A stretch of 55,471 bases of DNA. Origin: a bacterium. GTDB taxonomy: Bacteria > B130-G9. The DNA lies in contig DATLAJ010000120.1 of NCBI GenBank assembly GCA_035527515.1, positions 1 to 55,471 on the forward strand, written 5' to 3'. Both the position numbers and the translations under genes were made by a program. Positions 7,526 to 26,688 of the stretch are shown piece by piece. Below the pieces are notes generated by a model. The model was not told where the DNA came from. It made no database searches and was given only the letters and a program-made list of their open reading frames with translations. How positions within the stretch are numbered: position 1 is the stretch's first letter; each line of letters begins with the position of its first letter.

Positions 7526-9091
<1,566 letters not shown>

Positions 9092-9136
9092 GCCGACAGC
9101 TGAACGTCGGGAGCCTCGAGTTAAGAGAGATTAGGG

Positions 9137-10003: not shown

Positions 10004-10277
10004 GAGAGAGCAGGTGCGGTTTTTGGCTGGTCGAATAGTGGATGACCTTCTCAAGGAGAAGCTGATTGAGGTTGATAGGTCAGACCTTGAGATGTTCCGG
10101 GTGATGGTCGATGAGTTTGTCCTTGACCAGTTGCTTATCGAGGATAAGCTGAATGAGGAGGTTCGGAAGCTGTTGGACCATCATCGAGACGAGATGCACC
10201 GGGATAACATCAACTACCAGGACATGTTCAAGATGATCAAGAGGCGTCTCATTAACGAGCGTAACTTGGTGATCTGA
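9993..10277 (+). CDS. DUF507 family protein (first of tandem pair)
   Basis: The protein has 94 residues and is almost wholly helical and charged. It matches the DUF507 family by its opening 'MRLKREQVRFLAGRIVDDLL', the 'LD.LL.IED.LN.EVR.LL' stretch and the 'INYQDMFKMIKRRL' C-terminus. There is no signal or membrane segment, so it is cytoplasmic. The function of the family is unknown. It overlaps the end of dapF by 11 bases and is followed by a second DUF507 gene after 33 bases. Confidence 0.85.
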   Translation: MRLKREQVRFLAGRIVDDLLKEKLIEVDRSDLEMFRVMVDEFVLDQLLIEDKLNEEVRKLLDHHRDEMHRDNINYQDMFKMIKRRLINERNLVI

Positions 10278-10310
10278 AGGGGCAGCCCTGGATTCAGGAA
10301 GGCGAACTTT

Positions 10311-10616
10311 ATGAGACTTAGCGACGACAAGATAAACGATCTTGCATTCAACCTGACTGACCGGCTGGACCGGGACGAGCGAGCGAGGTGTGTTGCGTCA
10401 GTAAACGTTGTCCGGGCCTGTATCAGGCGAACGATTACTTCGGAGCTGCAGCTCGAGGACGAGGTCGTCCAGATAGTTCTCAGAAGGCTTGATGCGATGA
10501 AGTCCGTCAAGCCAGAGACGCCCAAATGGGAGGGTCATTTCGAGCGGCTCTACGCTGCGGAGATGGCCAAGCGGGGGCGGCAGTGGGACATAAACGCCCG
10601 AGACGTGCTCCGATAG
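10311..10616 (+). CDS. DUF507-like protein (second of tandem pair)
   Basis: The protein has 101 residues and resembles the preceding DUF507 protein in order and spacing: 'MRLSDDKINDLAFNLTDRL' at the start, 'LQLEDEVVQIVLRRLD' in the middle and 'YAAEMAKRG' near the end. Identity to its neighbour is low, so the duplication is old or the partners are specialised. DUF507 genes occur in adjacent pairs in several bacteria (from memory), which would suit a heteromeric complex. It is cytoplasmic and of unknown function. Confidence 0.75.
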   Translation: MRLSDDKINDLAFNLTDRLDRDERARCVASVNVVRACIRRTITSELQLEDEVVQIVLRRLDAMKSVKPETPKWEGHFERLYAAEMAKRGRQWDINARDVLR

Positions 10617-10644
10617 AGCGATTGCGGCGACCCGGGGAGACGAC

Positions 10645-13600
10645 ATGGTGAACATACACTTCTTGGCGGTGCGGCATCGTGCGTGGGGCTGTTTTCTGCT
10701 CCTATTCGGGACCTGCGCAGTGATGAGCCTGGGCGTAATCCTTGACTGCAGCGCTACAAACTCCGTTGCGGAAGGCCTTCTTATCTCGCCACTGGAATGC
10801 TCGCCCGACCTTGAGACGATTCGTTTCGAGTTTACGCTTACCGATTACCACGTTGACAAAACTCTCCAGCGGTCAGACGGGACGTTAGTCTCTGTGCCGG
10901 GGCTTCGAAACACGATGGAGGTGGGCGAGCCGTCCCTCCCCGTCAAGGGTTTTTATGTCGGCATCCCGGCGGATGTATCCTCCGCCACGGTGAGGCTCTT
11001 GTCCGAGGATTTCATCTTCGAGCACGACTGCAGCGTCCTTCCCTGGCGAGAGCCTGGCTGCGAAGCTTCGCCCAAAGGCGAGTCCGGAGACCTCGCCTGC
11101 GTGCGCGACGGCCTGTTCCCCCAAGCGCCGGTCAGAATCAGCCACATAGGCTTCCTCAGAAGCCAGAAAATCGCGCTCATCAAGGTATGCCCCATCCAAC
11201 TCGACGCGCGGCGAAATCTGCTGCGCATAGTGCGAAGCGGCTCGGTCGAGATAAGGCTCGTGCGCGACGCCAGGATACTGCCGGCCGCCGCCGAGCTCGG
11301 CCCTCGCGATGAGTCGCGCTTCGAGCCGATGCTCGCTCACCTTTTGGCCAATTACGAGCAAGCGAGGTTCTACCGACTCGCCAGTCGATTCGGCAGTGTG
11401 AGCGAGAGGACCGGCGAGGAGTATTGGTATGATCCTAGTATAACGTATTTGAAGCTCTCGACGAGCGAGGACGGTGTCTATAAGGTTGACTACGATGTTT
11501 TGCGGTCGCGCGGCGTTGCTCCCTCGGGGATAGATACTACGAGGTTGAAGCTCTACTACCGCGGGGAGATGGTCCCGATCCTTGTAATAGATGGCGGGGA
11601 CGGGTCCTTTGACGAGGGCGATTTCGTGGTCTTCATGGGTGGTCATAAGCGCAGCGAGCAGATCGGATGGGCATTGGACGAGTACACGGACGAGGCAGTC
11701 TGGTGGCTCTGCTGGGACGATGGGGCGGGGATGCGGTATCAGGCTGCCTCGGAGGATGTGCAGGGCTCGGTTGACGTCTTGGACGCCGACTCCTACTTCT
11801 GGGCGAAGGAGCACTTTGAGCAGGACGTGCTCTACGATGGTTGGAATGACGATGTCGATCAGGACAGCTGGTTCTGGGACACGGTCTGGTTTGCGCCCGA
11901 CTCGGCTACAGTCGATTTCAAGTTGCGAGCCTTTGGTGAGGCCGTCCAAAGTGCGGCGACCGTCTCGGTGCGGCTGAAAGGTAATTCAAGTGTCTTCAAC
12001 GTCAACCCAGACCACCATTCCGTCTTCTACGTCAACGGCGGCCAAACACCAATGGGGGACTTCTTCTGGGACGGATACGACTTCGCAACCATGACGTTTC
12101 AGGTCCCCGCGGGCAACCTCAAAGACGGCCGCAACACGATCACTACCTCAAGTCCTGGCGACACCGAGGCGAGCGTCGATTCGATCTACATCAATTGGGT
12201 GGAGGTCGAGTATCCTAGGCGCTATCAAGCGATTCGGGACGAGACTTGGTTCAAACCTCCTGCGGGCTCGGACGGCCGTCCTGTGGAGTATTGCCTTGCT
12301 GGGTTCGGTCAGAGCGATGTCCTGATTCTCGACATCACGGACGGGCGATACTTCCCTCGCTACTCTCGCGTCAATGAGGGGGGCTCGTGGGTCGTGCGTT
12401 TTGTGGACACTACGCCGTCTGCGCAGACGGTCTATTGGGCAACGACCCAGAGCGCTCTCAGAACGCCGCTCAGCGCGGTCCTTGACGAGCCTTCGACGCT
12501 TCGAGACCCGTCCAATCAAGCCGATCTTATCATCATCACCGTGCCGGAGTTTTTTGCGCCTCTTGCGCAGCTGGTTGAGTTCAGAAGGGCGCAGGGGATC
12601 AGCGTCAAGGTCGTTGATCTCCAGAACATCTTTGACGAGTTCAGCTACGGTATGTTCAATCCGCTGGCCATACGCTCCTTCCTCTGGTTTGCATACAACA
12701 ATTGGACCGAGCCAATCGCGACGCACGTCTTGCTCGTTGGCGACGCTTCGTGGGACTACCGGTTCATCCTGACCGACAGCGTCATACCAAATTACGTCCC
12801 GTCGTATCTCGATCCCGCGCGGGATGACAAGTTCGTGAACGTAACTGGGAACGAGAACGACTGGTATCCCGATTTCGCTATCGGTCGCATGCCCGTGCAG
12901 AACGCACAGGACCTAACCAAGATGATCGTAAACACTATCCGCTACGAGACCTCGCCGCCGCCGGGAGATTGGACGAGGCGTGCGCTCCTAGTGACGGGTG
13001 GTGAGAACTGGGTGGAGCAGGATACTTTCATGGGGCACGCTCGTGATTATGAGGCCGCTATGCCTGCTGATTTTGAGTTTGCGGAGGTCTTCAAACAGAC
13101 CGAGGGGACGGATAACAAGGACCATTACGCACAAAGGATACTGGAAGAGCTCAATCGCGGCGCCCTGATCACCATATTCTCGGGGCACGGAGCGAGGAAC
13201 CAATGGGACTTTGTGCTCGAGTCTTCTGACCTTTACGGCCTCCACTGTGAGGGCAAAACCTCGATAGTATTGGTGATGACCTGTCATACGGGCCGGTTCG
13301 CCAATCCAAAGACGCCATGCATCGGTGAGCGGTTCATCATGGAGGGCGACGCGTTGCAGGGGGCGTTGGGATACTGGGGTTCCACGGGGCTTACTTCTGT
13401 CTGGAATCCCTATTACCTCACGATGGACTTGTTGGGCGAGATATTTGACAGGGGCAGCACTGACATTGGCCTCGCTATCATGGCCGTGAAACTGAAGTTT
13501 TACGAGGAGTCCGAGGACGTTAGCCTTGCGTCGAGCCAGGCCTTCCTTGCGGACCCGATGCTCAGGATAAATCTACCTCCCATCCCTTCACCCTCCGATG

Positions 13601-14598
13601 TCGAGGCGAGCGTCTCGGGGGACGAGGTTACGATCTCCTGGGACTATCCCGACACGCTCGAGGACCTTGCCGGCTTCCATGTCTGCATCGGCGGGCAACA
13701 GGAGCCTGCCGGCAGGCCACTGAGCCCCTGCGACGATGGTTATGCCTTCTGGACTGACGCAGACAAAAGGGAGATGACGCTAGTTGCCGCGGGAGCATCC
13801 GCCAGCTACTGCGCCGTCGTTCGCGCCATCAATAGCGACGAGACCGCGAGCTGCTTCTCTGAAAGCGCCTGCTTCAAGTTTGGTGTTTCGGGCTCAGGTG
13901 TGCCGAAGATCATAGCGGCGGGCTACGCCGACAGCAGCATCACTCACCAGGAAGGCGGCAAGTTGAGCCTCTACGCTATGGTAGAGGACCCTGATGGCCT
14001 AGACGACATTGAGCGAGTCGCGGTGCGTTGCAGCGATGTTCCTGGGAGTCTCGATCTGGACGAGATTCTCCCCGGCATCTATTATACTCAGATCGATGTT
14101 GGCCCCGGCCTAAAGCAGGGACAGTATCTCCTCGAGCTTCGCGCCTCAGACCGCATGGGCAACGTCAGCGCCGTCAGCCCGTATTTTGCGGTTCGTGGCT
14201 GGGGGCTTGAGTGGCCGAGCTATACGGAGGCCAGCCAGGCCGCGAACTGGACGTTCGACGATTCGGCCAGGCAGGGCCCGCTCGTTCTCGCCGCGGGATA
14301 CTTGAGCTCCGGGATAACCTCGTTTGGTGGCGGGGAGTTGACGCTGGTTGCGCTCGTGGCTCCTGGTCCGTCCGGCTTCCCCGTCGCGCAAGTGGATGTT
14401 TACCTTGACGGCGTCCCCATCGGTGCGCAGCTTAGTGATGACGGATTGCACGGCGACTTCAATGCGGGCGACGGCATCTTTGGGCTTGAAGTGCCGATCC
14501 CGCCGGGCGAGGTTCCGGGCAACTACCTTGTTGGTTTGAGGGCCGTCGATGAGGGCGGCCTGTCGGGTCCTATGTGGCCTTTTGTTAGCGTATGGTGA
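10645..14598 (+). CDS. Secreted C25 (gingipain-like) cysteine peptidase with C-terminal beta-sandwich domains
   Basis: The protein has 1317 residues. An N-terminal hydrophobic segment (about residues 13-35) acts as signal or anchor. A propeptide-like region follows ('GEPSLPVKGFYVGIPADVS'), then a middle beta domain. The caspase-like catalytic domain (about 630-950) has 'HVLLVGDASWDY' near 695, the catalytic His in 'FSGHG' near 843 and the catalytic Cys in 'VMTCHTGRF' near 878. The rest has an FN3-like domain ('VEASVSGDEVTISW') and two copies of a beta-sandwich module beginning 'IIAAGYADSSIT' and 'VLAAGYLSSGIT'; the second carries 'DDGLHGDFNAGDGIF'. The usual type IX secretion C-terminal domain is not recognisable, so the export route is unclear. 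The stop overlaps the next start (ATGGTGA). Substrate unknown. Confidence 0.85.
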   Translation: MVNIHFLAVRHRAWGCFLLLFGTCAVMSLGVILDCSATNSVAEGLLISPLECSPDLETIRFEFTLTDYHVDKTLQRSDGTLVSVPGLRNTMEVGEPSLPVKGFYVGIPADVSSATVRLLSEDFIFEHDCSVLPWREPGCEASPKGESGDLACVRDGLFPQAPVRISHIGFLRSQKIALIKVCPIQLDARRNLLRIVRSGSVEIRLVRDARILPAAAELGPRDESRFEPMLAHLLANYEQARFYRLASRFGSVSERTGEEYWYDPSITYLKLSTSEDGVYKVDYDVLRSRGVAPSGIDTTRLKLYYRGEMVPILVIDGGDGSFDEGDFVVFMGGHKRSEQIGWALDEYTDEAVWWLCWDDGAGMRYQAASEDVQGSVDVLDADSYFWAKEHFEQDVLYDGWNDDVDQDSWFWDTVWFAPDSATVDFKLRAFGEAVQSAATVSVRLKGNSSVFNVNPDHHSVFYVNGGQTPMGDFFWDGYDFATMTFQVPAGNLKDGRNTITTSSPGDTEASVDSIYINWVEVEYPRRYQAIRDETWFKPPAGSDGRPVEYCLAGFGQSDVLILDITDGRYFPRYSRVNEGGSWVVRFVDTTPSAQTVYWATTQSALRTPLSAVLDEPSTLRDPSNQADLIIITVPEFFAPLAQLVEFRRAQGISVKVVDLQNIFDEFSYGMFNPLAIRSFLWFAYNNWTEPIATHVLLVGDASWDYRFILTDSVIPNYVPSYLDPARDDKFVNVTGNENDWYPDFAIGRMPVQNAQDLTKMIVNTIRYETSPPPGDWTRRALLVTGGENWVEQDTFMGHARDYEAAMPADFEFAEVFKQTEGTDNKDHYAQRILEELNRGALITIFSGHGARNQWDFVLESSDLYGLHCEGKTSIVLVMTCHTGRFANPKTPCIGERFIMEGDALQGALGYWGSTGLTSVWNPYYLTMDLLGEIFDRGSTDIGLAIMAVKLKFYEESEDVSLASSQAFLADPMLRINLPPIPSPSDVEASVSGDEVTISWDYPDTLEDLAGFHVCIGGQQEPAGRPLSPCDDGYAFWTDADKREMTLVAAGASASYCAVVRAINSDETASCFSESACFKFGVSGSGVPKIIAAGYADSSITHQEGGKLSLYAMVEDPDGLDDIERVAVRCSDVPGSLDLDEILPGIYYTQIDVGPGLKQGQYLLELRASDRMGNVSAVSPYFAVRGWGLEWPSYTEASQAANWTFDDSARQGPLVLAAGYLSSGITSFGGGELTLVALVAPGPSGFPVAQVDVYLDGVPIGAQLSDDGLHGDFNAGDGIFGLEVPIPPGEVPGNYLVGLRAVDEGGLSGPMWPFVSVW

Positions 14599-15197
14599 TT
14601 ATGCGAAGATACGTTCTGCTCCTGATTCTTGCCGTTGTCGCGCTGTCAGTGTTAATAGGCTGTCACAAGAAAGAGGCCTGGTTCGACACTGACCAGCAGA
14701 TCAACCCGAAGATCAGACACGCCAACTACGTTGACAAGGTGAACGCCTTCAAGCTCTATATCCCGCCCGGCGTCTGGAAGGTGGCTCGGGCCAAGAGGGC
14801 GCTCGTTGCACTGGTGAACCGCAGGTGTGTTGGCAAGGTTGTCATAAGGTCGGCGTGGCTTTTTTCAGGCGGATATGGGGAGGATGCGGAGAAGATTGCC
14901 GCCGAGAGCTTCACCGGCGATTTCGAGTGGCTGGACAAGAAGAAGTTCTTCGTAGGGGATTTCCCGGCTGTTCTCGTAACGGCCCGCGGCAAGATACTTT
15001 ACTCTCCGGCGGAAGATTTCTACGTCCAGCGAACCGTGGCGGCCGGAGTGATCAAATATGGGTCCAGGGAGTGCCAGTTCAAATATGTGGCCCCAGACGA
15101 TTGCTACCAGAAGACGAGGGACGATCTGGTGAACCTGATGATGGGCTTCAAGGAGCTTGAACGCTCCTGGTTCTCAGGCAAGAAGGACGAGGAATGA
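14592..15197 (+). CDS. Lipoprotein of unknown function, coupled to the C25 peptidase gene
   Basis: The protein has 201 residues (198 if ATG 14601 is used, which gives a more typical signal). The lipobox is 'VLIGC' and the mature part starts '[10 protein letters not shown]'. It reads as a mixed alpha/beta domain with '[15 protein letters not shown]' and '[18 protein letters not shown]', resembling small lipoproteins that carry a PsbP/DUF1795-like fold, but I cannot confirm that. It overlaps the peptidase stop by 7 bases and overlaps dtd by 4 bases (ATGA), so all three are probably translated together. The overlap suggests a role near the peptidase at the envelope. Confidence 0.75.
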
Positions 15198-15640
15198 GGG
15201 CCGTCCTGCAGCGCGTCAGAAGCGCCTCGGTTACGGTCAACGGCGACCGCATAAGCGCCATCGGCAGGGGTCTTCTGATTCTGCTCGGCGTAACAGGAGA
15301 CGACGATGCCAAGACGGCGGCACGGCTCGCGGAGAAGACCGCTGCACTCCGAATCTTCGAGGACCAAGCCGGCAAGATGAACCTTTCCGTTCGGGATGTC
15401 GCAGGCGAGGCGCTAGTCGTGTCGCAGTTCACCCTTTACGCAGACTGTAATAAGGGAAGGCGCCCCAGCTTTATGAACGCAGCCTCTCCTGACGAGGCGC
15501 GTGAGCTTTACGAGCGCTTCTGCGAGCTGCTGAGCGGGCTTGGCGTCCCCACGCGTCGCGGCCAGTTTGGGGCGAAGATGATAGTGTCCCTTGAGAACGA
15601 CGGGCCAGTTACGATCGTGCTCGACACGCTCCTACTCTGA
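15194..15640 (+). CDS. dtd: D-aminoacyl-tRNA deacylase
   Basis: It hydrolyses D-aminoacyl-tRNA (and glycyl-tRNAAla), recycling mischarged tRNA. The protein has 148 residues, the full length of the family. Diagnostic motifs are '[17 protein letters not shown]' at the start, '[17 protein letters not shown]' in the centre (catalytic region) and '[11 protein letters not shown]' at the end (the Gly-cisPro motif that excludes L-amino acids). The start overlaps the preceding lipoprotein stop as ATGA. The gene ends 11 bases before the convergent radical SAM gene, with no room for a hairpin terminator. Confidence 0.95.
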
Positions 15641-15651
15641 CTTTCTTGCCC

Positions 15652-17166
15652 TCATGCTCGGTCCCTTCTTCTCAAGCATTCAGCCAAGAGGAAGATGACA
15701 TAGCCGATCAGAGATCGGGGATTCGTGCGGAGTATCCGGGAGTATTTCTTGAAGAACCTGAAGGGGTTCCTCAGCAGAAGGCCCAGGTTGAGCGTCAAAA
15801 TGTTTCTTGAGACCAGCCGCTCCACCTCGCGCGATGTGAAATCCGGGGTCTCGATATTGCCCCTAGCGTAGATTATCTTCTCAAAGCTGAAGCCTTCTTT
15901 TAGGTATCCCTTCTCCTTGCAGATTCTGTAAAGCTCTGTGCCCGGCAGCGGTGTAGCGATGAAGATGCCTGCCGCGTCCAGGCGCAGCCTCTTTGCGAAG
16001 TCAAAAGTCTTCTGCATTTGCTCTTTTGTCTCGCCAGGAAGCCCCACAACGAAGTAGCCCTTTGTTATGAGACCCAGTTTTCTTGCGGCCTTCACAATTT
16101 GCTCGATCCTGTCCATCGAGATAGGTTTCTTGATGATGTTCTTCAGGACGTCTGGATCGCCGCTCTCTATCCCCAGGGTTATCTCGTAGCATCCGCTCCG
16201 TTTCATCTTCTCTAGAACTTCTTCATCCAGGCCCCAGATAGCGATACCTTGCGGTGTGTTCCATGCAAGGTCCAAGCGTCTGTCAACCATGCCGTCAAAC
16301 AGCTCTATGGCCCTGCCTCTCTCGAGCGTGAGATTATCGTCAATGAACTGGACCTCTCGGACCCCATATCGCTCGATCAGATGCTCCATCTCGTCCAAAA
16401 CCTTCTGGACGGAGCGTGTTCTTTGCCTGTTGCCCCAGAACCTCGCGGTGGCGCAGAATACGCAGCGCCCAGGGCACCCCCGCGATGTCATCATCGGTGT
16501 ATTCGGGGACCTCAAGGAAGTCCCGGACTGAGGTATGTTAGTGTCAAAGTAAGTCTGCATGGGCAGCAGGTGCCTAGCGGGCAGCGGAAGCTCGTCCAGG
16601 TCCTCAATGAAAGAGCTCTTCTCGTTTACTACTATTCTGCCCTCAGTCTTGTATCCGAGACCTCCTATCTGAGAAAAACCATCTCCGTCGGATACCCTCT
16701 GCATCAGGTCGCGCATCGTGTACTCGCCCTCGCCGATCACCACGAAATCGATGTAATCCCTGCTAAGGCTCTCTTCCGGCAGCGCGGAAGGGTGCTCTCC
16801 ACCCACAACCGTGATCGGAACTTTGCATCGCTCCTTGGCCAGCCTGCAAATCCCGCACATATCTGGAAACTGGCTCGATAAGAGACAGGACACGCCCACA
16901 ACGTCCGGCGAAAACTCGCTTATCTTCTTCTCAATCTCCTCATAGCTCAGACCGACGCGAACGTAGCCTCCGTCTATGGGATGTCGATTGCGGAAACCCT
17001 CCGCCGCCACATCCAGGACCCTCACGTCGTAGCCCTTTTCCTCCAGCACGGCCGCGACGTACGCTATCCCGAGCGGCGGGGTCAGGTCTATCTTGTATCC
17101 CCTTGGCGCCGTGTAGTGGGGGGACACTAGCAGGATTCTCTCGACACTCTTTTGAAGGCGCACCAT
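15652..17166 (-). CDS. B12-binding-domain radical SAM enzyme
   Basis: The protein has 504 residues. The frame opens at a TTG at 17187, but ATG 17166 has AAAGGA about 10 bases upstream and is chosen. The N-terminal half (1-150) is a cobalamin-binding fold: 'TPPLGIAYVAAVLEEKGYDVRVLD' and 'VGVSCLLSSQFPDM'. The radical SAM cluster ligands are C231, C235 and C238 in 'CPGRCVFCATARFWG'. 'VQFIDDNLTLERGRA', 'LGIESGDPDVLK' and 'KGYFVVGLPGETKEQM' are later core strands. Such enzymes carry out methylations or rearrangements. The usual DxHxxG cobalamin motif is not evident, so cobalamin may bind base-off or not at all. It is 460 bases downstream of, and in line with, the carbamoyltransferase gene. The substrate is unknown. 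Confidence 0.85.
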   Translation of the reverse strand: MVRLQKSVERILLVSPHYTAPRGYKIDLTPPLGIAYVAAVLEEKGYDVRVLDVAAEGFRNRHPIDGGYVRVGLSYEEIEKKISEFSPDVVGVSCLLSSQFPDMCGICRLAKERCKVPITVVGGEHPSALPEESLSRDYIDFVVIGEGEYTMRDLMQRVSDGDGFSQIGGLGYKTEGRIVVNEKSSFIEDLDELPLPARHLLPMQTYFDTNIPQSGTSLRSPNTPMMTSRGCPGRCVFCATARFWGNRQRTRSVQKVLDEMEHLIERYGVREVQFIDDNLTLERGRAIELFDGMVDRRLDLAWNTPQGIAIWGLDEEVLEKMKRSGCYEITLGIESGDPDVLKNIIKKPISMDRIEQIVKAARKLGLITKGYFVVGLPGETKEQMQKTFDFAKRLRLDAAGIFIATPLPGTELYRICKEKGYLKEGFSFEKIIYARGNIETPDFTSREVERLVSRNILTLNLGLLLRNPFRFFKKYSRILRTNPRSLIGYVIFLLAECLRRRDRA

Positions 17167-17628
17167 GTAAGAACTGTCCTTTCGCAATGTAGTGAGGGCT
17201 CGCGCAGGAAACCGTAAACTCTATTGGAGACGAGATTGAGCTAAGACTGCACGAAAGTCAATGTTAGAAGTCTAGAGGAATCACATAAGATACAAGGTAA
17301 GGCACAGCAACACACAGATATATCAGAACGATTGCCGCCTCGTGCGCTCGGGCAGACCAGACAAAGATCGCTTTTGGAGGCTGTCCAATGGAGGGGCCAG
17401 AGGTGTTCTTTGTAGGGGCGATTCATGAATCGCCCACAATATGCTGTGGCGCTGAGGTCGGGCGGTTCGTGAACCGCCCCTACATCTGGGGCCAGCCATC
17501 CTTAAACACAGGGATTCTCGCATGTAGATGCACTTATTGGACAGCCGCTTTTGGGCCGCCACTGCGATGCGCGACCAAGAAGCATGAGGCGGTCCAGAAA
17601 GCCTGCGCCGCAGCGTGGCATTCGGGCA
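17167..17628. other. Intergenic region with a palindromic repeat, no gene
   Basis: About 460 bases between two minus-strand genes. The short open frames here, on both strands, are translations of the palindromic repeat (17411-17484) and not genes. A further 11-base inverted pair, GGCTGTCCAAT (about 17379-17389) and ATTGGACAGCC (about 17537-17547), brackets the repeat, so the whole stretch could be a small non-autonomous element. No clear promoter was found for the gene at 17166. Confidence 0.5.
17411..17484. repeat. MITE/REP-like double palindrome
   Basis: The outer inverted repeat is TGTAGGGGCG (17411-17420) and CGCCCCTACA (17475-17484), a perfect 10 bases. Inside are two 20-base palindromes, at 17416-17435 (GGGCGATTCA and its complement) and at 17460-17479 (GGGCGGTTCG and its complement). 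This is the design of widespread palindromic intergenic repeats. Only this copy is seen in the window. Confidence 0.75.
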
Positions 17629-19326
17629 CTAGCTGGGCGATTCGTTCTTCACCAAGAAGTTGTTGATCGCAAGGTAGTCGAGATGGCCGAGTGTGAAAGC
17701 CCTAAGCGCATCGTAGGGCGTGCAAACTATCGGCTCCTCGTGCATGTTGAAAGAGGTATTGATGATACTGGAGAGGCCCGTCATCTCGTAATACCGCTTT
17801 AGTATGCGATAGTAGGATGGGTTGTCGCTCTCGTGGATGAGCTGCGGCCTTGCTGTGCCGTCAACGTGAACGACGCCGGGGCACTCCCGCTTCATTTTCG
17901 GCGTGCAATCGAACGCTATCGTCATAAACTTCGCCGCATACTCGGCGCCATCAAGCCCCGTGTAGCACTCGTGCGCCTTCTCCGCAAGCGTAACCGGGGC
18001 AAACGGCATGAACTCCGTCCGCTTGAGCTTTTCGTTCAACCAGTCGTTCACCGACGGGTCAGTCGCCTGATACAAAATCGTCCTGTTGCCGAGCGCCCGC
18101 GGGCCATACTCCATCCTGCCGGCGAACCTGGCCACGACCTTGCCCTGCGTCAGCAGCGTGGCTATTGTCTCCTCGATTTCAGGGTCTTTCTTGACCTTCA
18201 GCCCGTCGAAGTTGCTGAACTCCCGCTCAACGGCCGCGTCGTCAAAAGCCGGCCCGAAATAAACGGTATCAAGCCTAAACGGCTTAAGTCCCGTCTTTTC
18301 CGCAAGGAACATAAGCCCCGCTCCGAGCGAGAGCCCCGCATCGCTCATCCCAGGATGCACGAATATCTCGTCAACCTGCTCCAACTCATGAAGCTTCTGG
18401 TTCAGCCGAACGTTCCCAGCAACGCCGCCCGCCAGCACGAGGCGCCTCAGCCCCGTCTGGTCAAGCCCGTGCTGGACGAAATCGACGACTACGTCCTCGA
18501 GGCGCCGCTGCGCCGCCGCTGCGATGTCCTCCGCGCTGAACTTGGCGAGCTGCCTATAAAGCCCTCTTTTGAAGCTTTTGGTCAGAATTGGTGGCAGAAT
18601 GAACTTCTTTTGGTCTGGTGAGAGCGAGAAGAATCGCATCATCAGCTGGTAGGCGTTGTAGGCATCGCCGCGTGCCGCAAGGCCGGTCACCTTGCCGGCA
18701 TGTTTGAGCGGATTGAAGCCGAGAAACTGCGTTATCTCACCATAGAACTGGCCTGCCGAGGCAAGCGCCGGCATGCCATACATGAGCCGCACCTTCCCGT
18801 CCTTGCAGTAGAACATTCCGCCCGAAAGCCCGTCCCCGATGTTATCGATCGTAACGCCAAGCGCTTCGGGGAAGCCGGAGGTCATAAACGCCGAATATGC
18901 GTGCGTCAAGTGGTGGTCGCAGAGGACTATCTTCCGCCCAAGATGCCGCTGCAAAAGGGATTTGCACAGCCACTCCACAAGCGATTGCAGGGGCCCGCAG
19001 CTCTGCACCAACTGGTGGTAGTGCATGTAAACCTTCTGCTTGAGGTTCAAGAAGTCATGGTTGTAATCCTTGAACTGGTTGGGGAAGAGCCGATAGACGA
19101 AATGATACTTGTTGGCTGCCACAACAGTATCTACGTCCTCAAAATCTATCCCTGCCTCCGAAAGGCAATACTTGATGGCAAGCTCCGGAAACCCGGCGCT
19201 GCACTTCTTGCGGTTGAAGCGCTCCTCGGCGGCCGAGGCAACGATCTTGCCGTCTATGAAAAGCGAGGCGTTTGCGGTGAAATCCTCGCTGAAGCTCAGG
19301 ATGATCCGTTCCTTCGGCGCCTCCAC
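17629..19326 (-). CDS. Carbamoyltransferase of the NodU/CmcH/TobZ family
   Basis: The family transfers a carbamoyl group from carbamoyl phosphate, through carbamoyl-AMP, to a hydroxyl of a sugar or natural product. The protein has 565 residues. The N-terminal Kae1-like domain has the metal-binding 'CDHHLTHAYSAF' (H138, H139, H142), 'DNIGDGLSGGMF' and 'AGGVAGNVRLNQKL'. The C-terminal domain has 'GRMEYGPRALGNRTIL' and 'INTSFNMHEEPIVCTP'. The first strand, usually with a His-Asp-x-Ser, reads 'DFTANASLF' and lacks the His, which may affect activity. The start is GTG 19326, sharing one base with the stop of the SPASM gene (TAGTG), so the two are translationally coupled. It is cytoplasmic. The acceptor is unknown; a radical SAM product or an envelope sugar is plausible. 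Confidence 0.9.
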   Translation of the reverse strand: MEAPKERIILSFSEDFTANASLFIDGKIVASAAEERFNRKKCSAGFPELAIKYCLSEAGIDFEDVDTVVAANKYHFVYRLFPNQFKDYNHDFLNLKQKVYMHYHQLVQSCGPLQSLVEWLCKSLLQRHLGRKIVLCDHHLTHAYSAFMTSGFPEALGVTIDNIGDGLSGGMFYCKDGKVRLMYGMPALASAGQFYGEITQFLGFNPLKHAGKVTGLAARGDAYNAYQLMMRFFSLSPDQKKFILPPILTKSFKRGLYRQLAKFSAEDIAAAAQRRLEDVVVDFVQHGLDQTGLRRLVLAGGVAGNVRLNQKLHELEQVDEIFVHPGMSDAGLSLGAGLMFLAEKTGLKPFRLDTVYFGPAFDDAAVEREFSNFDGLKVKKDPEIEETIATLLTQGKVVARFAGRMEYGPRALGNRTILYQATDPSVNDWLNEKLKRTEFMPFAPVTLAEKAHECYTGLDGAEYAAKFMTIAFDCTPKMKRECPGVVHVDGTARPQLIHESDNPSYYRILKRYYEMTGLSSIINTSFNMHEEPIVCTPYDALRAFTLGHLDYLAINNFLVKNESPS

Positions 19327-20348
19327 TATCGCGATTTCCTCGATTTATACATGGATTTCAGCCAGCCTGTGATCACCCTGCGGTCCAGAGAGTAAAGATA
19401 GTTGTATTCCGTGAAGCAGGACGCGTCGCATGCCTTGCACGGCACTTTCTTGGTCGCATCGAACGCCTCTTTGAAGCCGACATCAAGGAAGTTCTTCGCC
19501 TCCATCAGCTCGATCAGAAGCGAGCAGGGATACACATCACCGTTCGCATCAACGTTGCAGTAAAGCTGCCCCGCCCAGCACCTTAGCCCATGCATCCTGT
19601 AAGGAAGCATCGGAACTGAGTAGTCCGGCCAGGCCAGAAGGAACTCAAGGTAAGACAGAGTTGATGCTATGGGCGCACCGCGCCTCTTCTCCAGTATCAG
19701 CTTCCGGATGGCCTTCCTGTAGTCCTCGTTTGACGGGACGAAATCGTGCACGTCAACTCCGAGCCGCTCGTTGTGATGGATTACCTGGAAGGTCGTCAGG
19801 AAGTTATACTTCTTGGCCATATTCAGGATGTAGTCTATGGAGTGAAGGTTGTGCTTGGACAGAACAGTGATCGACCAGAACGGTAGCCTGTTGGACGCAA
19901 CCTTGATCGCCTCCAACACCCGCTCGTGGCTGCCAGTTTCCCGGTTCAGTTCGTGCGCCTCCTTGTCGCCGTCAAAAGCTATGATCATGTGCTCCAGCTT
20001 CCCCAGCTCGTGGATTCTATCCGGCACCAGGAAGCCGTTTGTGTCCATCGTTGTGTACATCCCCTTGAACGACGCGTAGTTGACCATCTCGGCGATGTCG
20101 TCGCGCACCAGCGGCTCACCGCCCCAAAAGCCCAGTCGTGTGCACCCCATTTCCCTGAGCTGATCGATGAGCGAGAATATCTCGTCGGTCGTGAGCTCTC
20201 GCTGCTTTCGGAGCGGGATATTGCAGTAGTGGCAATGGCACGTGCAGTGGTTCGTTACCGACAGCATGACGTTGAGCGGCATCCGGTGGCCTAAGTAATT
20301 GGCCCGCAGGACGCCGATCCCCATCTCCACGACGTTCCTAAACTTCAT
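19326..20348 (-). CDS. Radical SAM/SPASM domain enzyme
   Basis: The protein has 340 residues. The radical SAM motif CxxxCxxC is C35/C39/C42 in 'NHCTCHCHYCNIPLR'. 'RLGFWGGEPLVRDDI' is the SAM-binding GGEP strand. A SPASM-type tail with auxiliary-cluster cysteines follows: 'CWAGQLYCNVDANGDVYPC' and 'VPCKACDASCF'. SPASM enzymes modify peptides, proteins or sugar-linked substrates. Position and length fit the stand-alone SPASM family close to MoaA/PqqE-like enzymes. Its stop overlaps the carbamoyltransferase start by one base, so both probably act in one pathway. No precursor peptide gene is visible next to it. It starts at ATG 20348, 74 bases beyond the GH57 stop. Confidence 0.85.
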   Translation of the reverse strand: MKFRNVVEMGIGVLRANYLGHRMPLNVMLSVTNHCTCHCHYCNIPLRKQRELTTDEIFSLIDQLREMGCTRLGFWGGEPLVRDDIAEMVNYASFKGMYTTMDTNGFLVPDRIHELGKLEHMIIAFDGDKEAHELNRETGSHERVLEAIKVASNRLPFWSITVLSKHNLHSIDYILNMAKKYNFLTTFQVIHHNERLGVDVHDFVPSNEDYRKAIRKLILEKRRGAPIASTLSYLEFLLAWPDYSVPMLPYRMHGLRCWAGQLYCNVDANGDVYPCSLLIELMEAKNFLDVGFKEAFDATKKVPCKACDASCFTEYNYLYSLDRRVITGWLKSMYKSRKSR

Positions 20349-20422
20349 AGTTCAAAAATCTTCCTACACTGCTGGCAAGGTTACAACCTTATGCCGAGAC
20401 GGGCCTGGCCAGTCGGCCGGGA

Positions 20423-22540
20423 CTAAACCGGCCTGAGCGCAAGCTCTATCCTGCGCTCCACGCGCTCGCCGCTCGAAAACCTCAATGGCCACTGCACTAC
20501 AACAGTTGTCGCTTGTTTTATCAACTCAAAACCGCTCTCCGACTGAGAGACTGTCTCGAGCGGGAACCTGAAAATATCTCCCTTAACATCAAAGGACAAA
20601 ACAATCTCGAACCCGCGATGGGGGTCGCTAAGTCGAAGCGCGCTGACGCGTTTAGGCCTCGCCGTCTCGGCAAGCGACTGCCAATCATCACCGCTACGGC
20701 AAAAGTGGCAATCGTCGCTGCCCCCATAACACGCAAATGAAAACTCCACAGCAAATATGGCATCAAAACTCTCCTGTCCAGCATAGTCTAAACAGTAGTC
20801 GCACACTATCCGCCCCGAGGCGCCTCTCACCGTAAAGGTCTTGCTTAAACTCATTGGCTGTGGCAAATGCCCCGCGTAAAGAGCGCCTCGCCGCCTGAAC
20901 TTCGCGACCGCTGTCGTCTCCGAGCAGGTTGTCTCAATGTCATAAGTGCTCGTGATAAAGTCGCCCAAATCTCTGTACTTGCTATCACGTAGCTGCGCAA
21001 GGTCTGTGCCAATCGGCAAAAAATGCTCCAAAAATGACCATTTTGGATGCCAGTCGTAGTTGAGCCGACTCAGGATGCGCTCGCTCGCCTCATAACGCCG
21101 GTCGTGGATCGAGGCGTGGTCGCGCTCCGCCGACGAGTCTTCAGGGCTGCCAAGATGAGCGTGATATGCCTCCTTCCGTCGCGAGAGCGTGTCCAAAACG
21201 TTCACAAACGAGCGCCGGCAGTCCAGCTCAACCATGCCGCCGCCGACGGGCGAGAAAACACACGCAAGGTTGGGGTTCTCAACAATCACCTCGTCAAGGC
21301 CGTCAGAATTGATGTCCTCCGTGGACAGCGAAACCCACCCCGCGTCGCCGCGCTGCGCGCGCTGGACCGCCGATTCTGCCTCGATCAGTTTTTGATATAT
21401 TGCGAACCTCAGATGCGGAAGATATAGACCTCCAAACACGCCGTGCCAATAAGCACAGTTGCACTGGGCACGCATTAGGTCCGCCTCGGCCTGCTCGCGC
21501 AGTGCGTCTGGAACCGCCGCACCATGAACCTGAGCGCTCACGTGCCACATCCGCTTGTGCATGTAATTGCTCTCGGAATACTTCGCCAAAAAGCCTCGCC
21601 AGAATCCACCACGAACGAACGGCTTATAGCGGTCGAGGCTGTTCTCGTGCTTGAGCCGATCTATGAGCTCGCCGTAAACCAGCGCCGGCTCGGTCGGCAA
21701 AGTCCACTCGCCCATCTCGTGATAGGAGCAAGTTGGCAGATAGACCCGGCCCCGCGGCTCGAACGAGCTCATGTACTCGGACGGCGTTACCGTGCGAATG
21801 CAGTCCGATTCCGATAGCATTATGAGAAACCTCTCTAGCCATTTCTCCTTGAACACCCACTTGTGCGTCTCAGGCCAAACCCCGAACTTCTCACAGTCGT
21901 CGAACATGACCAATAGCCGCGAACCGTCGCTAGATGCCATGCTCTCTAAAAACTCCACCGGCTCATGAGGCTGTGAGAACGGCATCTGATAGCGAAGCTT
22001 CTCCGAGATCGGAAACACCGCAAGTCGCTCGCCCGCATCCTCAGTCATAAAATAGCCGAACAGCTCCGACGTCGGCAGACCTGCCGCGTTGAAATGATAG
22101 TCATCGAGGACCACGTATTTGATCCCGGCCCGTCCGATAATCGAGGCAAGCTGCGGCTCCCACACACGCTCTGCCACCCACATCCCCGCCGGCCGAATCG
22201 AGAAGCGCTGCTCGATCCGCTGGCTCATCAGCTCTATCTGTGCTTTCTGGTTCCAGGGCGGAATGACGGATAGGAGCGGCTCGTAGAAGCCGCCGCCCAG
22301 CATCTCCACCTGGCCCCGGTCGCAGAGCCTTCTCAGAAGGTCGAGAAAATCTGCATGGTGCGACTCGAGCCACTCCCAGAGCGTCCCGGTCACGTGCACA
22401 GAGACCTTGACCTGCTCAAAACGCTCGATCATCTCCATGAACGGCAAATATGAACGCTCGTAGGCCGACTCGAAGACGTGATCGAAGTTGCCAAGCGGCT
22501 GATGCAAATGAACGCCAAACGCGAAGTTTATCCTTCTCAT
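20423..22540 (-). CDS. GH57 4-alpha-glucanotransferase/alpha-amylase-like enzyme
   Basis: The protein has 705 residues from ATG 22540 (the frame extends 14 codons upstream, but 'MRRINFAFGVHLHQP' is the typical GH57 start). The catalytic nucleophile is E124 in 'WVAERVWEPQ' and the acid/base is D214 in 'MFDDCEKFGVWPE', almost the positions (E123, D214) of the Thermococcus litoralis 4-alpha-glucanotransferase. 'GGFYEPLL' is another conserved strand. The C-terminal third fits the DUF1925/DUF1926 beta domains of that family. It acts on alpha-1,4-glucans such as glycogen or maltodextrin; the absence of a signal peptide puts it in the cytoplasm. It lies upstream of the radical SAM/carbamoyltransferase genes on the same strand, but the 74-base gap does not prove a shared role. 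Confidence 0.9.
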   Translation of the reverse strand: MRRINFAFGVHLHQPLGNFDHVFESAYERSYLPFMEMIERFEQVKVSVHVTGTLWEWLESHHADFLDLLRRLCDRGQVEMLGGGFYEPLLSVIPPWNQKAQIELMSQRIEQRFSIRPAGMWVAERVWEPQLASIIGRAGIKYVVLDDYHFNAAGLPTSELFGYFMTEDAGERLAVFPISEKLRYQMPFSQPHEPVEFLESMASSDGSRLLVMFDDCEKFGVWPETHKWVFKEKWLERFLIMLSESDCIRTVTPSEYMSSFEPRGRVYLPTCSYHEMGEWTLPTEPALVYGELIDRLKHENSLDRYKPFVRGGFWRGFLAKYSESNYMHKRMWHVSAQVHGAAVPDALREQAEADLMRAQCNCAYWHGVFGGLYLPHLRFAIYQKLIEAESAVQRAQRGDAGWVSLSTEDINSDGLDEVIVENPNLACVFSPVGGGMVELDCRRSFVNVLDTLSRRKEAYHAHLGSPEDSSAERDHASIHDRRYEASERILSRLNYDWHPKWSFLEHFLPIGTDLAQLRDSKYRDLGDFITSTYDIETTCSETTAVAKFRRRGALYAGHLPQPMSLSKTFTVRGASGRIVCDYCLDYAGQESFDAIFAVEFSFACYGGSDDCHFCRSGDDWQSLAETARPKRVSALRLSDPHRGFEIVLSFDVKGDIFRFPLETVSQSESGFELIKQATTVVVQWPLRFSSGERVERRIELALRPV

Positions 22541-22801
22541 CTCTGTCTCAGGGCTTCCCACCATCACAAAACTCGCGGTCATTGCCCCGAAAGATAAGTG
22601 ATCTCCCCCACCCCGTCAAGGTGCCCACGGCACTCGGGTAGCTGTTTCCGCCGGCGGACGTAAGCTGTCGGCTCGCACCGAAACGGAGCTCGCCTCAGGC
22701 AGCTATCCAGAGTGGGGGTCGATGCTGAAGCGCAGCCTCGGCCCAGAGTAAGGGAGCGGAGGCTCTCCGCGTGGTGAGTCCTTACTGTCAACCGCCAACT
22801 G
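22541..22801. other. Intergenic region with repeats, no gene
   Basis: About 260 bases between the GH57 gene and the propeller gene. It holds the dispersed repeat (22736-22771) and the start of the tandem 14-mers. No promoter, RNA gene or open frame of interest was seen. Confidence 0.5.
22736..22771. repeat. Dispersed repeat, inverted copy at 54291-54333
   Basis: CCTCGGCCCA, six variable bases, then GGGAGCGGAGGCTCTCCGC. The same layout occurs in reverse complement at 54291-54333. The 3' part is itself a small palindrome (GCGGAG-GCT-CTCCGC). Both copies lie between genes. Confidence 0.6.
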
Positions 22802-22813
22802 TCAACGGCCAAC
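22786..22813. repeat. Tandem 14-base repeat over the end of a gene
   Basis: TGTCAACCGCCAAC (22786-22799) is followed at once by TGTCAACGGCCAAC (22800-22813). The stop codon of the propeller gene (22802-22804) lies inside the second unit. A related CGCCAACCGCCAACCGCCAAC stretch is found near 26893-26914. I see no coding role. Confidence 0.5.
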
Positions 22814-24469
22814 CACCTGAAAGGTGAGGGGGAAGAGCTCATCGACGGGCGTCAGCGTGCCGGGCGTTGTGAAGCCGGCGATGATGGTGTATGTGCCCTC
22901 TGGTGCGCCTTCGGGGATGGCGCCGAGGAAAAGCGGCGCGTCGATCATCTCGTAGCTGTTCGGCAAATAGACGTTCGGGAACCAGGGCGTCGGCGAGGCG
23001 CGAAAGCCCGAGGATGTGTAGTAGGAGATTGCCCCGTTCGGCAGGATGACCGCCAGGTAGCCATCCACAACCTCATCCTCCCCAAAGTTATACGGCTGGA
23101 GCAGCACAATAACCTCCTCACCGGGCTGATAAACGTCCCCCGCCTCCCGCTCCGGCATCTTGACCCGCACCCGCGAGTGGTGTGGCTTGTGATCGGATAA
23201 CGCGAGAAGCGTCGTTTGATCGAAAATGCTCGTTCGATCAGTGTGCCCTCTCACATATACTGTCCCAGATGAATCAAGAGCCAGGACATCCATGTCATCT
23301 TCAGGGAATGTCATGCGCCAGCGTTCTGTGCCGTCGGGATCAAGCGAGATAACCTCGCCCTGGAATGCATAATAGACGTTCCCCGCTGCATCGCACTTGC
23401 ATACACTGTGGGTACCCATAGTGATCCATGGTCGGCCCATGCTCTTATCCCAAGCGGGGGTCCCGTCCGGGTCGATTCTTAGAAGCTTAAGCTCGCGGAA
23501 CCAGTCATTATCGCTTTCCGGCAATGCATGCACGACATACCAACCGCCGAATGGGTCTCCGCACGCGTTCTCCCAAACAGTGAATCCATCGGGCGTGTAT
23601 TCCCAGAGCTTCGCCTCTAGGCTAGCATCGGCAAACACGGCCACTTTCTTCTTCGCGGCGACGAAGACATTTCCCAGTTGATTCACCTTTGTGTAGTAGC
23701 CGCCCCACGCGGGGTACGTCTCGTAGGACGGGAAGTATGCCGAATGAATCGAGACGCCGTCTGGATTCAGCTCAGAAGCACAGAACCATTCTGCCTCAAA
23801 ACCACCACCAGGCACCGCCTCCCAGGTATAATATGCCCACGTGGCTATACCGTCTGCATTGAACGCAGCGATATACGGGCAATGCTTCAGCACGTCTTCT
23901 GAGACCAGGTTCCCATGTTCATCAAAGACCTTCATTAGCCCCTGGTCCTCAGTTCTCCAGTCGGCAAGAACCGCCAGTCCTCTGTGGTGCACGGGAACAA
24001 CGATGCTAGCGCGAACTGTCGTATTCCATACCTCTGACCCGTCAAGGCGCCGGCAAGACAGTACATCATCTCTGGTCCCGCTATTGGAGTTACATAAGTA
24101 GATGTGATCATCATCGGTTGCGCGGCCACAGAAGCCGGACCAATTGGGGTCGGTGTAGGGCAGCGGAAGTCTTAGGTCTGTGGACCCGTCAGGACGTAGC
24201 AGAAGCACGAGGTTGTCTTGTAAAAAGCCCGCGGTGAGCAAGAGTCTGTCCTCGGGGCCGATGCCGCCGAATGCAAGCCCCTCTAGCATCCCCCTCGAAT
24301 ACATGACGTTGGGGCATCCAGGCCCTGTGCTAAATCCGCAGCGCGCCCTACCTTGCCGTCCCTCTTCGATAGTCCAGGCGCAGTGTGAGGTCGATATGTG
24401 TCCAAAGGCCGCACCGGCCAAACAGCCGCACAGCACCACTGTCATGAAACATACCGCGAAGAGCTTCAC
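22802..24469 (-). CDS. Secreted beta-propeller protein with the shared C-terminal beta-sandwich domain
   Basis: The protein has 555 residues. The frame opens at ATG 24499, but GTG 24469 is chosen: AAAGGAG lies 10 bases upstream, it overlaps the previous stop by 4 bases (GTGA), and it gives a normal signal peptide ('VKLFAVCFMTVVLCGCLAG'). Residues ~60-420 form a PQQ-like or similar propeller with repeats such as 'CKCDAAGNVYYAFQGEVISLDPDGTERW' (split over strands). The C-terminal ~110 residues ('YQPGEEVIVLLQPYNF', 'GYLAVILPNGAISYY', 'PEGAPEGTYTIIAGF') are the domain shared with three other proteins here. It is probably exported to the periplasm or surface. The signal contains 'LCGC', so lipidation is possible. 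Function unknown. Confidence 0.8.
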   Translation of the reverse strand: MKLFAVCFMTVVLCGCLAGAAFGHISTSHCAWTIEEGRQGRARCGFSTGPGCPNVMYSRGMLEGLAFGGIGPEDRLLLTAGFLQDNLVLLLRPDGSTDLRLPLPYTDPNWSGFCGRATDDDHIYLCNSNSGTRDDVLSCRRLDGSEVWNTTVRASIVVPVHHRGLAVLADWRTEDQGLMKVFDEHGNLVSEDVLKHCPYIAAFNADGIATWAYYTWEAVPGGGFEAEWFCASELNPDGVSIHSAYFPSYETYPAWGGYYTKVNQLGNVFVAAKKKVAVFADASLEAKLWEYTPDGFTVWENACGDPFGGWYVVHALPESDNDWFRELKLLRIDPDGTPAWDKSMGRPWITMGTHSVCKCDAAGNVYYAFQGEVISLDPDGTERWRMTFPEDDMDVLALDSSGTVYVRGHTDRTSIFDQTTLLALSDHKPHHSRVRVKMPEREAGDVYQPGEEVIVLLQPYNFGEDEVVDGYLAVILPNGAISYYTSSGFRASPTPWFPNVYLPNSYEMIDAPLFLGAIPEGAPEGTYTIIAGFTTPGTLTPVDELFPLTFQVVGR

Positions 24470-25143
24470 GGGTGGTTCACTCCTTTTTCGCCAAACCATG
24501 CCTCTCTCCCGTCCGTTATTGGGATTAGCAGCTTATATTTTTCACGGACGTCCCAAGGGACGCTCTCGCAGTTGTATGGGTTGAATCGCTCAGACGCCTC
24601 GGCAAAGTGGGCTGCGAATGTTGCGAAGAGGGGTGCCTCCGCGCTATTTGGCGGATGTTCTTTGCTTTCTTCTCTCTCTTGCTTGACTTCCGAATCGTCC
24701 TTCACTTCGTTGGCAAGGCCGGGGAAGAGTGCGTCATAGGGCCATGAGTCGTTGCCACTATGGAGGATTCCCCGCCGCGCTATTTCATCTCTGACCCACG
24801 GTCCTTTCGGGATCCATTCTCGCGCAAGCCCGACCAAGAGAGCTGCGGAGTGGTCTGTTGGGCTAGCGAGCGGGGCCATGACAAGATGCGCCGCCATATC
24901 GGGCGCTGTCTGGCAAAGTATCCAGAAGAGGCAAGCGCGAGCCTGGGGGGATATTTGCAGACCATCTTTGCGCAGCTGCCAGCAGATCAGAGGGGCTGCG
25001 CGGCGACCGGCCTTGAGGAGGCGCTGAACAACCGAATCATTCCGGAACGACATCAGGAGCTCCGACATGGTGCCAGCGTGCCGAGCGAAAGGAATGCCAT
25101 CGGGTTTCGCGACTTCCTTGATAATGTCGAGGTAAGTAGCCAT
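24466..25143 (-). CDS. Helical protein of unknown function
   Basis: The protein has 225 residues with no signal peptide. The first 140 residues look all-helical, with motifs such as 'LLKAGRRAAPLICWQLRK' and 'HSAALLVGLAREWIP', possibly an ARM/HEAT-like solenoid. A charged, disordered stretch with 'DDSEVKQEREESKEH' follows (about 148-165), then a short aromatic tail. ATG 25143 has AGGA 7 bases upstream. It overlaps the propeller gene by 4 bases (GTGA) and follows the beta-helix gene after 54 bases, so the three form one transcription unit. I do not recognise the family. A cytoplasmic helical protein between two secreted ones is unexpected. Confidence 0.7.
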   Translation of the reverse strand: MATYLDIIKEVAKPDGIPFARHAGTMSELLMSFRNDSVVQRLLKAGRRAAPLICWQLRKDGLQISPQARACLFWILCQTAPDMAAHLVMAPLASPTDHSAALLVGLAREWIPKGPWVRDEIARRGILHSGNDSWPYDALFPGLANEVKDDSEVKQEREESKEHPPNSAEAPLFATFAAHFAEASERFNPYNCESVPWDVREKYKLLIPITDGREAWFGEKGVNHP

Positions 25144-25197
25144 TCTAGGTCCTGCTCGTACTGTTCAATTTGGTGGCTCTGTTTTCATCAAGGATTC

Positions 25198-26688
25198 TCA
25201 CGGAATCGGATAATGGACTCCCATGTCCACCCTACCGGTGTCCGGTGTCCCATCTTCTTGCGTTGTCATGCGTGAGAGGCCGGCCTCCTCCGCGGACCTG
25301 CTTCCCGCGTCGATGCACGGGCTTGCGGGATCAAGATAGCGCTTCCACCCAGTCCATCCAGGCCACGGCGAGTCGGCTACAAGCATCGGGTCCTGATCGA
25401 TGTTGCCCTCGCCAGGATAACCGCCCTTTATGCAGCAGTAGCTGGCAGATACACCATAGAGGACCAGGTCGTTTGTCCCCCACACAATGCAATCGACCAC
25501 CGCCGCATCGACGCCACTACAAGAAATCCCTGACCCGTATCCGATGTTGTCCACGATGGTGTTGTTGAATATCTGAGGCGGCCCAGCATTCTGATAGTCC
25601 CAAGTCGCGATCCCGCCCCCAAAGCACGCGGTGTTCCCCACAATTGTGTTGTTCGCGATAATCGCCGCGCTGTTCTCGCAGAGGATACCGCCTCCTTCGG
25701 CTGCACACGACGGCTCCGCGGTGTTTCGGAGGATCAGGTTGCCTACAATGGCGGGCGAGCCGCCAGTGCAGTATATCCCCGCGCCGCCGCCCCCACAAGC
25801 ACCCCACCCTGCGCTGTTCTCTCTTATCGTGTTATCTGCAATTAGAACGGAGCTGTCGCGGCAGAATATCCCTCCGCCAAACTTGACCCCCATCAAACCA
25901 CCATAGGATGCAGGGCCGCCGCCCGTAATAGTAAATCCACGAATTGTCACACCTTGCACATCCTCGCACGCGATGACGCTGGTCCCATATTCCTCCGCAT
26001 CAATTGTTGTCCCAGGCCCTTCAGCGACAAGTGAGACCCAGCTCTTCATCCTCAGCGGGAAAGCCTCGCCGGTGGCCCAAAAATAGGTCCCAGGGGCGAC
26101 ATGAATCGCCACAGGGGCCTCTTGTAGGCTTTCCACCGAATACAAAGCATGCCTGATTGACTGCCAAGGCGCTTCCTCGGAGCCGTAGTTCGCATCATCG
26201 CCAATCTCTACGTCAACGTAGTAGTCCGAAGCCTGAGGCATCCCGACCATGAACGCTGCGAGGGCTATGTTGCTGAGCAGGTCCGCCGTGTCAGCCCGGG
26301 TCAAGGCCGCAAGAAAAAAGAACTCGCCAGGTTCGTTTATCGGCGGCATCTCGCACGGCACGGTGAACCAGAAAAACGGCGTTCGCTGCGGCTGCGCTAG
26401 ACGGGGGAACCAGAAGCCGGGGGCCCAAGGGCCCTTGACGCCCTCGCACCAGCCGTCCCATGCAAGCGTGTAGAGCGCGCCTTCGGGCGTCAACAGGCCG
26501 ACATAGACGTCAACGGACATGCCCCCGCCGTCGTTATGACCGGCCAGGCTCACCTCAACCGTATCCCCCGCCTTGTAGCTCTCGCTGTCGGTTTTGATGA
26601 ATACCTGAGGCGCCGCCCTGGCCGCCCCCGGCAACATTGTCAAAAGCGCAATGGTGACGATAATTAACCCGAAAACACGTAGCTTCAT
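25198..26688 (-). CDS. Secreted right-handed parallel beta-helix protein (DUF1565-like) with N-terminal shared beta-sandwich
   Basis: The protein has 496 residues from ATG 26688, chosen because GGAGGG lies 7 bases upstream and the signal peptide 'MKLRVFGLIIVTIALLTML' starts there (the frame opens 15 codons earlier). After cleavage near 'ARAA', residues ~30-140 are the shared domain ('YKAGDTVEVSLAGHNDG', 'VDVYVGLLTPEGALYTL'). A parallel beta-helix (about 170-470) follows: it starts like DUF1565 ('SIRHALYSVESLQEAPVAIHV'), has repeats such as 'VTIRGFTITGGG', 'VLIADNTIRENSAG' and 'PAIVGNLILRNTA', and ends with 'DPASPCIDAGS'. It is probably a surface or extracellular carbohydrate-binding or degrading protein, but no catalytic residues can be named. 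Confidence 0.85.
   Translation of the reverse strand: MKLRVFGLIIVTIALLTMLPGAARAAPQVFIKTDSESYKAGDTVEVSLAGHNDGGGMSVDVYVGLLTPEGALYTLAWDGWCEGVKGPWAPGFWFPRLAQPQRTPFFWFTVPCEMPPINEPGEFFFLAALTRADTADLLSNIALAAFMVGMPQASDYYVDVEIGDDANYGSEEAPWQSIRHALYSVESLQEAPVAIHVAPGTYFWATGEAFPLRMKSWVSLVAEGPGTTIDAEEYGTSVIACEDVQGVTIRGFTITGGGPASYGGLMGVKFGGGIFCRDSSVLIADNTIRENSAGWGACGGGGAGIYCTGGSPAIVGNLILRNTAEPSCAAEGGGILCENSAAIIANNTIVGNTACFGGGIATWDYQNAGPPQIFNNTIVDNIGYGSGISCSGVDAAVVDCIVWGTNDLVLYGVSASYCCIKGGYPGEGNIDQDPMLVADSPWPGWTGWKRYLDPASPCIDAGSRSAEEAGLSRMTTQEDGTPDTGRVDMGVHYPIP

Follow-up and report, generated by a model that had tools for sequence, protein, structure and literature searches.

Results

The window, by which we mean the whole stretch of DNA analysed (55,471 nucleotides), carries three contiguous minus-strand genes encoding a GH57 4-alpha-glucanotransferase, a radical SAM enzyme and a predicted class III carbamoyltransferase, with a dispersed repeat and a B12-binding radical SAM gene downstream of them:

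20423..22540, minus strand: GH57 4-alpha-glucanotransferase, first gene of the trio (phmmer and Pfam)
19326..20348, minus strand: radical SAM enzyme with a C-terminal auxiliary-cluster domain that looks Twitch-like, 340 aa, second gene of the trio
19324..19328, minus strand: TAGTG stop/start junction, a one-base overlap of the radical SAM and carbamoyltransferase genes (from the sequence)
17629..19326, minus strand: predicted class III O-carbamoyltransferase (TobZ/NodU/GdmN superfamily), 565 aa, third gene of the trio, base His replaced
17374..17530, no strand given: dispersed repeat of ~155 bp with palindromic segments, between the carbamoyltransferase and B12 genes
15652..17166, minus strand: B12-binding radical SAM enzyme, a neighbour judged not to be a member of the trio (Pfam and synteny)

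An earlier, sequence-only reading of this DNA had grouped the genes differently. The three minus-strand open reading frames that it named were confirmed, at 15652-17187 (511 aa), 17629-19326 (565 aa) and 19326-20348 (340 aa), and their products match the Pfam families B12-binding plus Radical_SAM, Carbam_trans_N plus Carbam_trans_C, and Radical_SAM, respectively. The TAGTG overlap that it described is present and is identical in the sister species G001, and we likewise found no NRPS, no PKS and no space for a precursor peptide at the locus. Its pairing of the radical SAM enzyme with the carbamoyltransferase stood, but its inclusion of the B12 radical SAM enzyme did not, and the upstream GH57 gene (20423-22540) had been overlooked; the compact unit is carbamoyltransferase, radical SAM enzyme and GH57, and its boundaries had been drawn wrongly. 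A scan for promoters and terminators gave nothing clearly above shuffles. Elsewhere in the window, a minus-strand open reading frame of 4247 codons (34815-47558) apparently encodes a giant secreted or surface protein.

The GH57 reading frame opens at 22582, and its orthologues and the solved homologue start at Met15, position 22540. Its product matches Pfam GH57 and AmyA-gluTrfs_C and aligns over its full length with the 4-alpha-glucanotransferase of Thermococcus litoralis (1k1w; phmmer E 5e-157). The catalytic domain of GH57 enzymes uses a Glu as nucleophile and an Asp as acid/base, and both catalytic blocks are kept (AERVW and FDDCEKFGVW here versus TERVW and HDDGEKFGVW in 1k1w). Unlike the T. 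litoralis gene, the one in the window adjoins radical SAM and carbamoyltransferase genes.

Conservation was assessed in the window genome (G000) and three other genomes of the same bacterial family, whose members are uncultured and little known (G001, G002 and G003), two of the four being less than 90% complete; relatives beyond these share domain rank only. In all four, the GH57, radical SAM and carbamoyltransferase genes follow one another in this order, contiguously and on one strand, with adjacent GH57 orthologues in G002, G003 and G001, where the gene is partial, cut by the contig end. In each genome the GH57 enzyme is the sole copy of its 4-alpha-glucanotransferase type. The carbamoyltransferase orthologues of the three other genomes are 92, 85 and 76% identical to that of the window, and GTG is the start codon of all four. 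The radical SAM and carbamoyltransferase genes overlap by one base (-1 nt) both in the window and in G001, and are spaced 2 nt apart in G002 and 5 nt apart in G003; between GH57 and the radical SAM gene the spacing is 74 nt in the window, 148 nt in G001, 36 nt in G002 and 6 nt in G003. Small open frames, which the sequence-only reading had advised looking for, find no room for a precursor gene here, as the intergenic spaces of the trio are at most 148 nt in all four genomes. Its proposal that the radical SAM enzyme and the carbamoyltransferase share a pathway is strengthened by the retention of the pair in four of four family genomes compared.

The surroundings of the trio have been less stable. 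When window positions 8000-27900 were compared at the DNA level with the family genomes, the block running from IMPDH to DTD was found apart from the trio both in G002 (C118, the trio being on C239) and in G003 (C95/C179, the trio being on C313). On G002:C239 the trio lies beside prs/rplY/pth-like genes, with a patatin-like gene and then prs downstream, and a divergent EF-G gene stays upstream of the trio in G003. DNA identity between the family genomes with these rearranged neighbouring blocks is about 65-75%. That the trio has been kept intact against this rearranging background is the main evidence for a functional unit.

Adjacency in the window genome by itself is hardly meaningful. G000 (3.47 Mb) has 74 radical SAM matches, or ~1 per ~47 kb, and 10 carbamoyltransferase matches, two of which are fragments; a radical SAM gene lies within 5 kb of ~4 of these 10, compared with 2-3 of 10 expected by chance from a hand estimate. 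The question had to be settled by comparison with relatives. For its size the genome is rich in both enzyme classes, many of its radical SAM proteins resembling B12-binding ones.

The same comparison removes the B12 radical SAM enzyme, which the sequence-only reading had placed in the pathway. Its start is more likely the ATG at 17166, kept in G001, than the TTG at 17187, and it scores below every NCBIfam cut-off (327/575 bits for Sden_1168, 203/578 for HpnJ and 159/481 for BchE). An orthologue adjoins the carbamoyltransferase in G001 (92% identity), so that two radical SAM enzymes and a carbamoyltransferase are adjacent on one strand in both genomes, as a pathway of all three would have it. 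This adjacency is nevertheless confined to the genus. In G003 the orthologue is on another contig (C221) among other genes, and the trio contig runs ~1.5 kb past the carbamoyltransferase without a B12 gene; in G002 no orthologue was found, the best match being 37% identical. The 441-bp gap between the carbamoyltransferase and B12 genes, moreover, is partly occupied by the dispersed repeat. We judge the B12 enzyme to be a recent neighbour rather than a partner, excluded from the trio by synteny in G003 and G002, and regard a single pathway with two radical SAM enzymes as very improbable. Downstream of the G003 orthologue, on the same strand, comes another B12 radical SAM gene that differs from it (L052, 840-4343). 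The repeat itself (GGGCGGTTCGTGAACCGCCC, with palindromic segments) has 48 matches across the genome, several of which are further copies of nearly full length (87-89% identity); it is missing at the equivalent site in G001 and resembles a MITE or REP-type element.

The radical SAM enzyme of the trio matches Pfam Radical_SAM (E 1e-20), with the CX3CX2C motif at C35/C39/C42. In a 13-sequence alignment C257, C275, C304 and C307 are invariant, and their spacing (CX17C...CX2C) is that of Twitch/SPASM enzymes such as BtrN, MoaA, BlsE, SkfB and PqqE, with which it also shares the radical SAM core and a Cys-rich C-terminal domain. The SPASM label given to it earlier does not hold: Pfam SPASM (PF13186) gave no match at E<=0.001, and of the seven-cysteine motif CX9-15GX4C-gap-CX2CX5CX3C-gap-C (PMC6231123) it has C257-x12-G270-x4-C275, then C304-x2-C307-x3-C311 and no later Cys. 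Twitch, the one-cluster version (PMC6231123), looks the better label on this cysteine pattern. In a Twitch domain the Cys of the single auxiliary cluster lie around the beta-hairpin and behind the next helix, a layout that the four invariant Cys would fit. Unlike the characterised Twitch/SPASM enzymes, which it matches at TM about 0.6 and 12-22% identity, it scores below every NCBIfam cut-off, and it forms a separate subfamily with relatives 38-50% identical in Fermentibacterota, Chloroflexi and Armatimonadetes contigs. A second radical SAM gene of the window, on the minus strand at 32002-33153, has a Pfam SPASM match and is 25% identical to that of the trio.

In the AlphaFold model of this enzyme (pLDDT 90.7) the nearest folds are BlsE (top), PqqE, SkfB, SuiB, anSME and MoaA, at TM about 0.55-0.66, with the sactipeptide maturase 5why also among the top matches. 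BlsE acts on a sugar acid nucleoside. These matches support the enzyme class and no particular substrate. The presence of SkfB, SuiB, PqqE and 5why among them is what would be expected if the enzyme were a RiPP maturase and the carbamoyltransferase decorated its peptide. However, gaps of at most 148 nt leave no space for a precursor gene in any of the four genomes, the 340-aa protein is without an N-terminal peptide-binding extension (its core starts near residue 24), and no NCBIfam RiPP maturase model reaches its cut-off. We rejected a RiPP pathway on the absence of precursor space, and consider this explanation of the trio highly unlikely.

The carbamoyltransferase matches Carbam_trans_N (Kae1-like, E 6e-33) and Carbam_trans_C (YrdC-like, E 3e-58) in Pfam. 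By alignment the iron ligands are kept as H138 and H142 (H138xxxH142), D161 and D329, the counterparts in GdmN being H133, H137, D156 and D333 (PMC9633730), as are the GPRALG and NTSFN motifs. Both domains (PF02543 and PF16861), the H-xxx-H/Asp/Asp ligands and the two motifs are shared with TobZ, GdmN, NovN and NodU/NolO, and class III membership holds on these predicted domains and aligned ligands. Unlike those enzymes, to which it is about 30-35% identical, it belongs to a separate clade and has its general-base His replaced; at 565 aa versus about 680 aa, it is too short to include a GdmN-type C-terminal dimerisation domain.

In GdmN the general base H27 deprotonates the acceptor hydroxyl, and the H27N variant is inactive (PMC9633730). 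Matching of this position through the GdmN alignment, with a gapless count back from the EERF block, places F16-T17 at the H-D motif of the window enzyme. The His is missing in all four family carbamoyltransferases, whereas almost all other aligned sequences have H-D. Its loss is not a single-assembly sequencing error, because three further members of the clade (L042_8196, L043 and L045) are also without it. Given the inactivity of H27N, it is not certain that this enzyme carries out O-carbamoylation by the standard mechanism; either another residue may act as base, or the acceptor may be different, or activity may be low.

A tree of 44 carbamoyltransferases, including NolO, NovN and paralogues from the same genome, places the enzyme in a 14-member clade (support 100/99) apart from all of these. 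In this phylogeny, a check that the sequence-only reading had called for, the enzyme falls outside the NodU/NolO branch, and a NodU-type nodulation function was rejected on the tree together with the NodU model score (135.6 against a cut-off of 1000 bits). Several members of the clade, and most of the sister enzymes checked, have neighbours encoding sugar epimerases, glycosyltransferases, Wzz-type proteins, DegT aminotransferase or asparagine synthases, and sugar-related acceptors are therefore a reasonable expectation by analogy. The suggestion of an envelope glycan is backed only indirectly: sister carbamoyltransferases do lie in surface-polysaccharide clusters, but the operon itself adjoins no glycosyltransferase, export or polymerase gene.

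Outside the family the combination was not encountered. A profile search of genome contigs with the radical SAM alignment yielded 80 relatives, and in their flanks neither a carbamoyltransferase nor GH57 was present at any of the 80 loci outside the family. The same was true near all ten close subfamily members in other families (0 of 10), whose genomes do carry unlinked carbamoyltransferases. In the reverse direction, no member of the radical SAM subfamily was found at E 1e-25 in those searched genomes that encode a carbamoyltransferase of the window enzyme's clade, save G037 (31% matches). On present data the operon is thus specific to one family, and the gene-neighbourhood analysis proposed earlier shows the pairing within the family (4 of 4 genomes) and not at the loci searched beyond it. 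We found no report of GH57, radical SAM and carbamoyltransferase together among the open-licence papers searched.

Two related arrangements were seen elsewhere. At L041 (9403-12214), in another lineage, epimerase-type genes are followed by a full-SPASM radical SAM gene and, immediately downstream of it, a distant carbamoyltransferase gene (46% identity). This is not the same operon, as its radical SAM enzyme is only 26% identical, has a full Pfam SPASM match and so belongs to another subfamily; it is an independent, analogous pairing of both enzyme classes. In Candidatus Sabulitectum (Fermentibacterota) the trio's radical SAM subfamily occurs in a tight operon (L095, 3266-7761; L098, 2740-7235) with a DUF362 protein, an unassigned 487-aa protein and a CoA-ligase-like protein, a separate conserved context.

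Its restriction to a single family, the low cost of adjacency among 74 radical SAM matches and its absence from the other loci searched would all be expected if the trio had come together by chance and persisted because rearrangement is slow in a small family of close relatives. We regard this as improbable, however: between these same genomes, at about 65-75% DNA identity, the neighbouring blocks have been reshuffled, and the trio has nonetheless stayed whole with near-zero spacing.

Discussion

The reading we favour, though tentatively, is that the trio is a three-gene operon for a brief tailoring route in the cytoplasm, acting on a sugar or on an oligosaccharide derived from alpha-glucan. 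We infer the substrate, the order of steps and the product as follows. The GH57 enzyme would cut and transfer alpha-1,4-glucan, and so supply or shape the acceptor. The radical SAM enzyme may then abstract hydrogen from a sugar carbon, with oxidation, epimerisation or decarboxylation as the outcome and the auxiliary cluster taking the electron, in the manner of BtrN and BlsE. Finally, the carbamoyltransferase would use carbamoyl phosphate and ATP to form carbamoyl-AMP and pass the carbamoyl group onto the product. The downstream B12 radical SAM enzyme lies outside this pathway.

Pointing to such a sugar pathway are the conserved trio, the homology of the GH57 enzyme, BlsE as the top fold and the sister carbamoyltransferases among sugar genes. 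Against it, members of the radical SAM subfamily in other phyla have no GH57 or carbamoyltransferase gene nearby, the fold matches at TM about 0.6 include peptide maturases and so do not single out sugars, the evidence comes from a small sample of four genomes of one family, two of them less than 90% complete, GH57 may be a housekeeping enzyme that shares a promoter, and the lost His may mean a different acceptor or weak activity.

The possibility of a housekeeping GH57 leads to a close rival. It is quite possible, if somewhat less probable, that the radical SAM enzyme and the carbamoyltransferase form a pathway by themselves, whose product is either a small soluble metabolite or a sugar of a surface glycan, and that GH57 is a glycogen enzyme that happens to share their transcription unit. 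A single 4-alpha-glucanotransferase of this type per genome is as expected for housekeeping; the gap on the GH57 side varies more (6-148 nt) than that between the other two genes (-1 to 5 nt); and the surface-polysaccharide clusters with sister carbamoyltransferases are without GH57. Yet GH57 remains with the pair in every family genome despite the rearranged flanks, as the three-gene tailoring operon would have it.

A more specific outcome of the tailoring operon, which we consider unlikely, is that its product is an alpha-glucan or sugar of a new kind, both carbamoylated and radical-modified, with carbamoyl transfer proceeding without a His base of the GdmN type, either through E14/D15 beside the site or to another acceptor, for example an amine.

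In a genome so rich in radical SAM genes, same-strand neighbours should be compared across relatives before they are assigned to one pathway. The lost base His offers a sharp and cheap test of acceptor choice and activation by class III carbamoyltransferases. If the trio is one pathway, it would link alpha-glucan metabolism to radical chemistry and carbamoylation.
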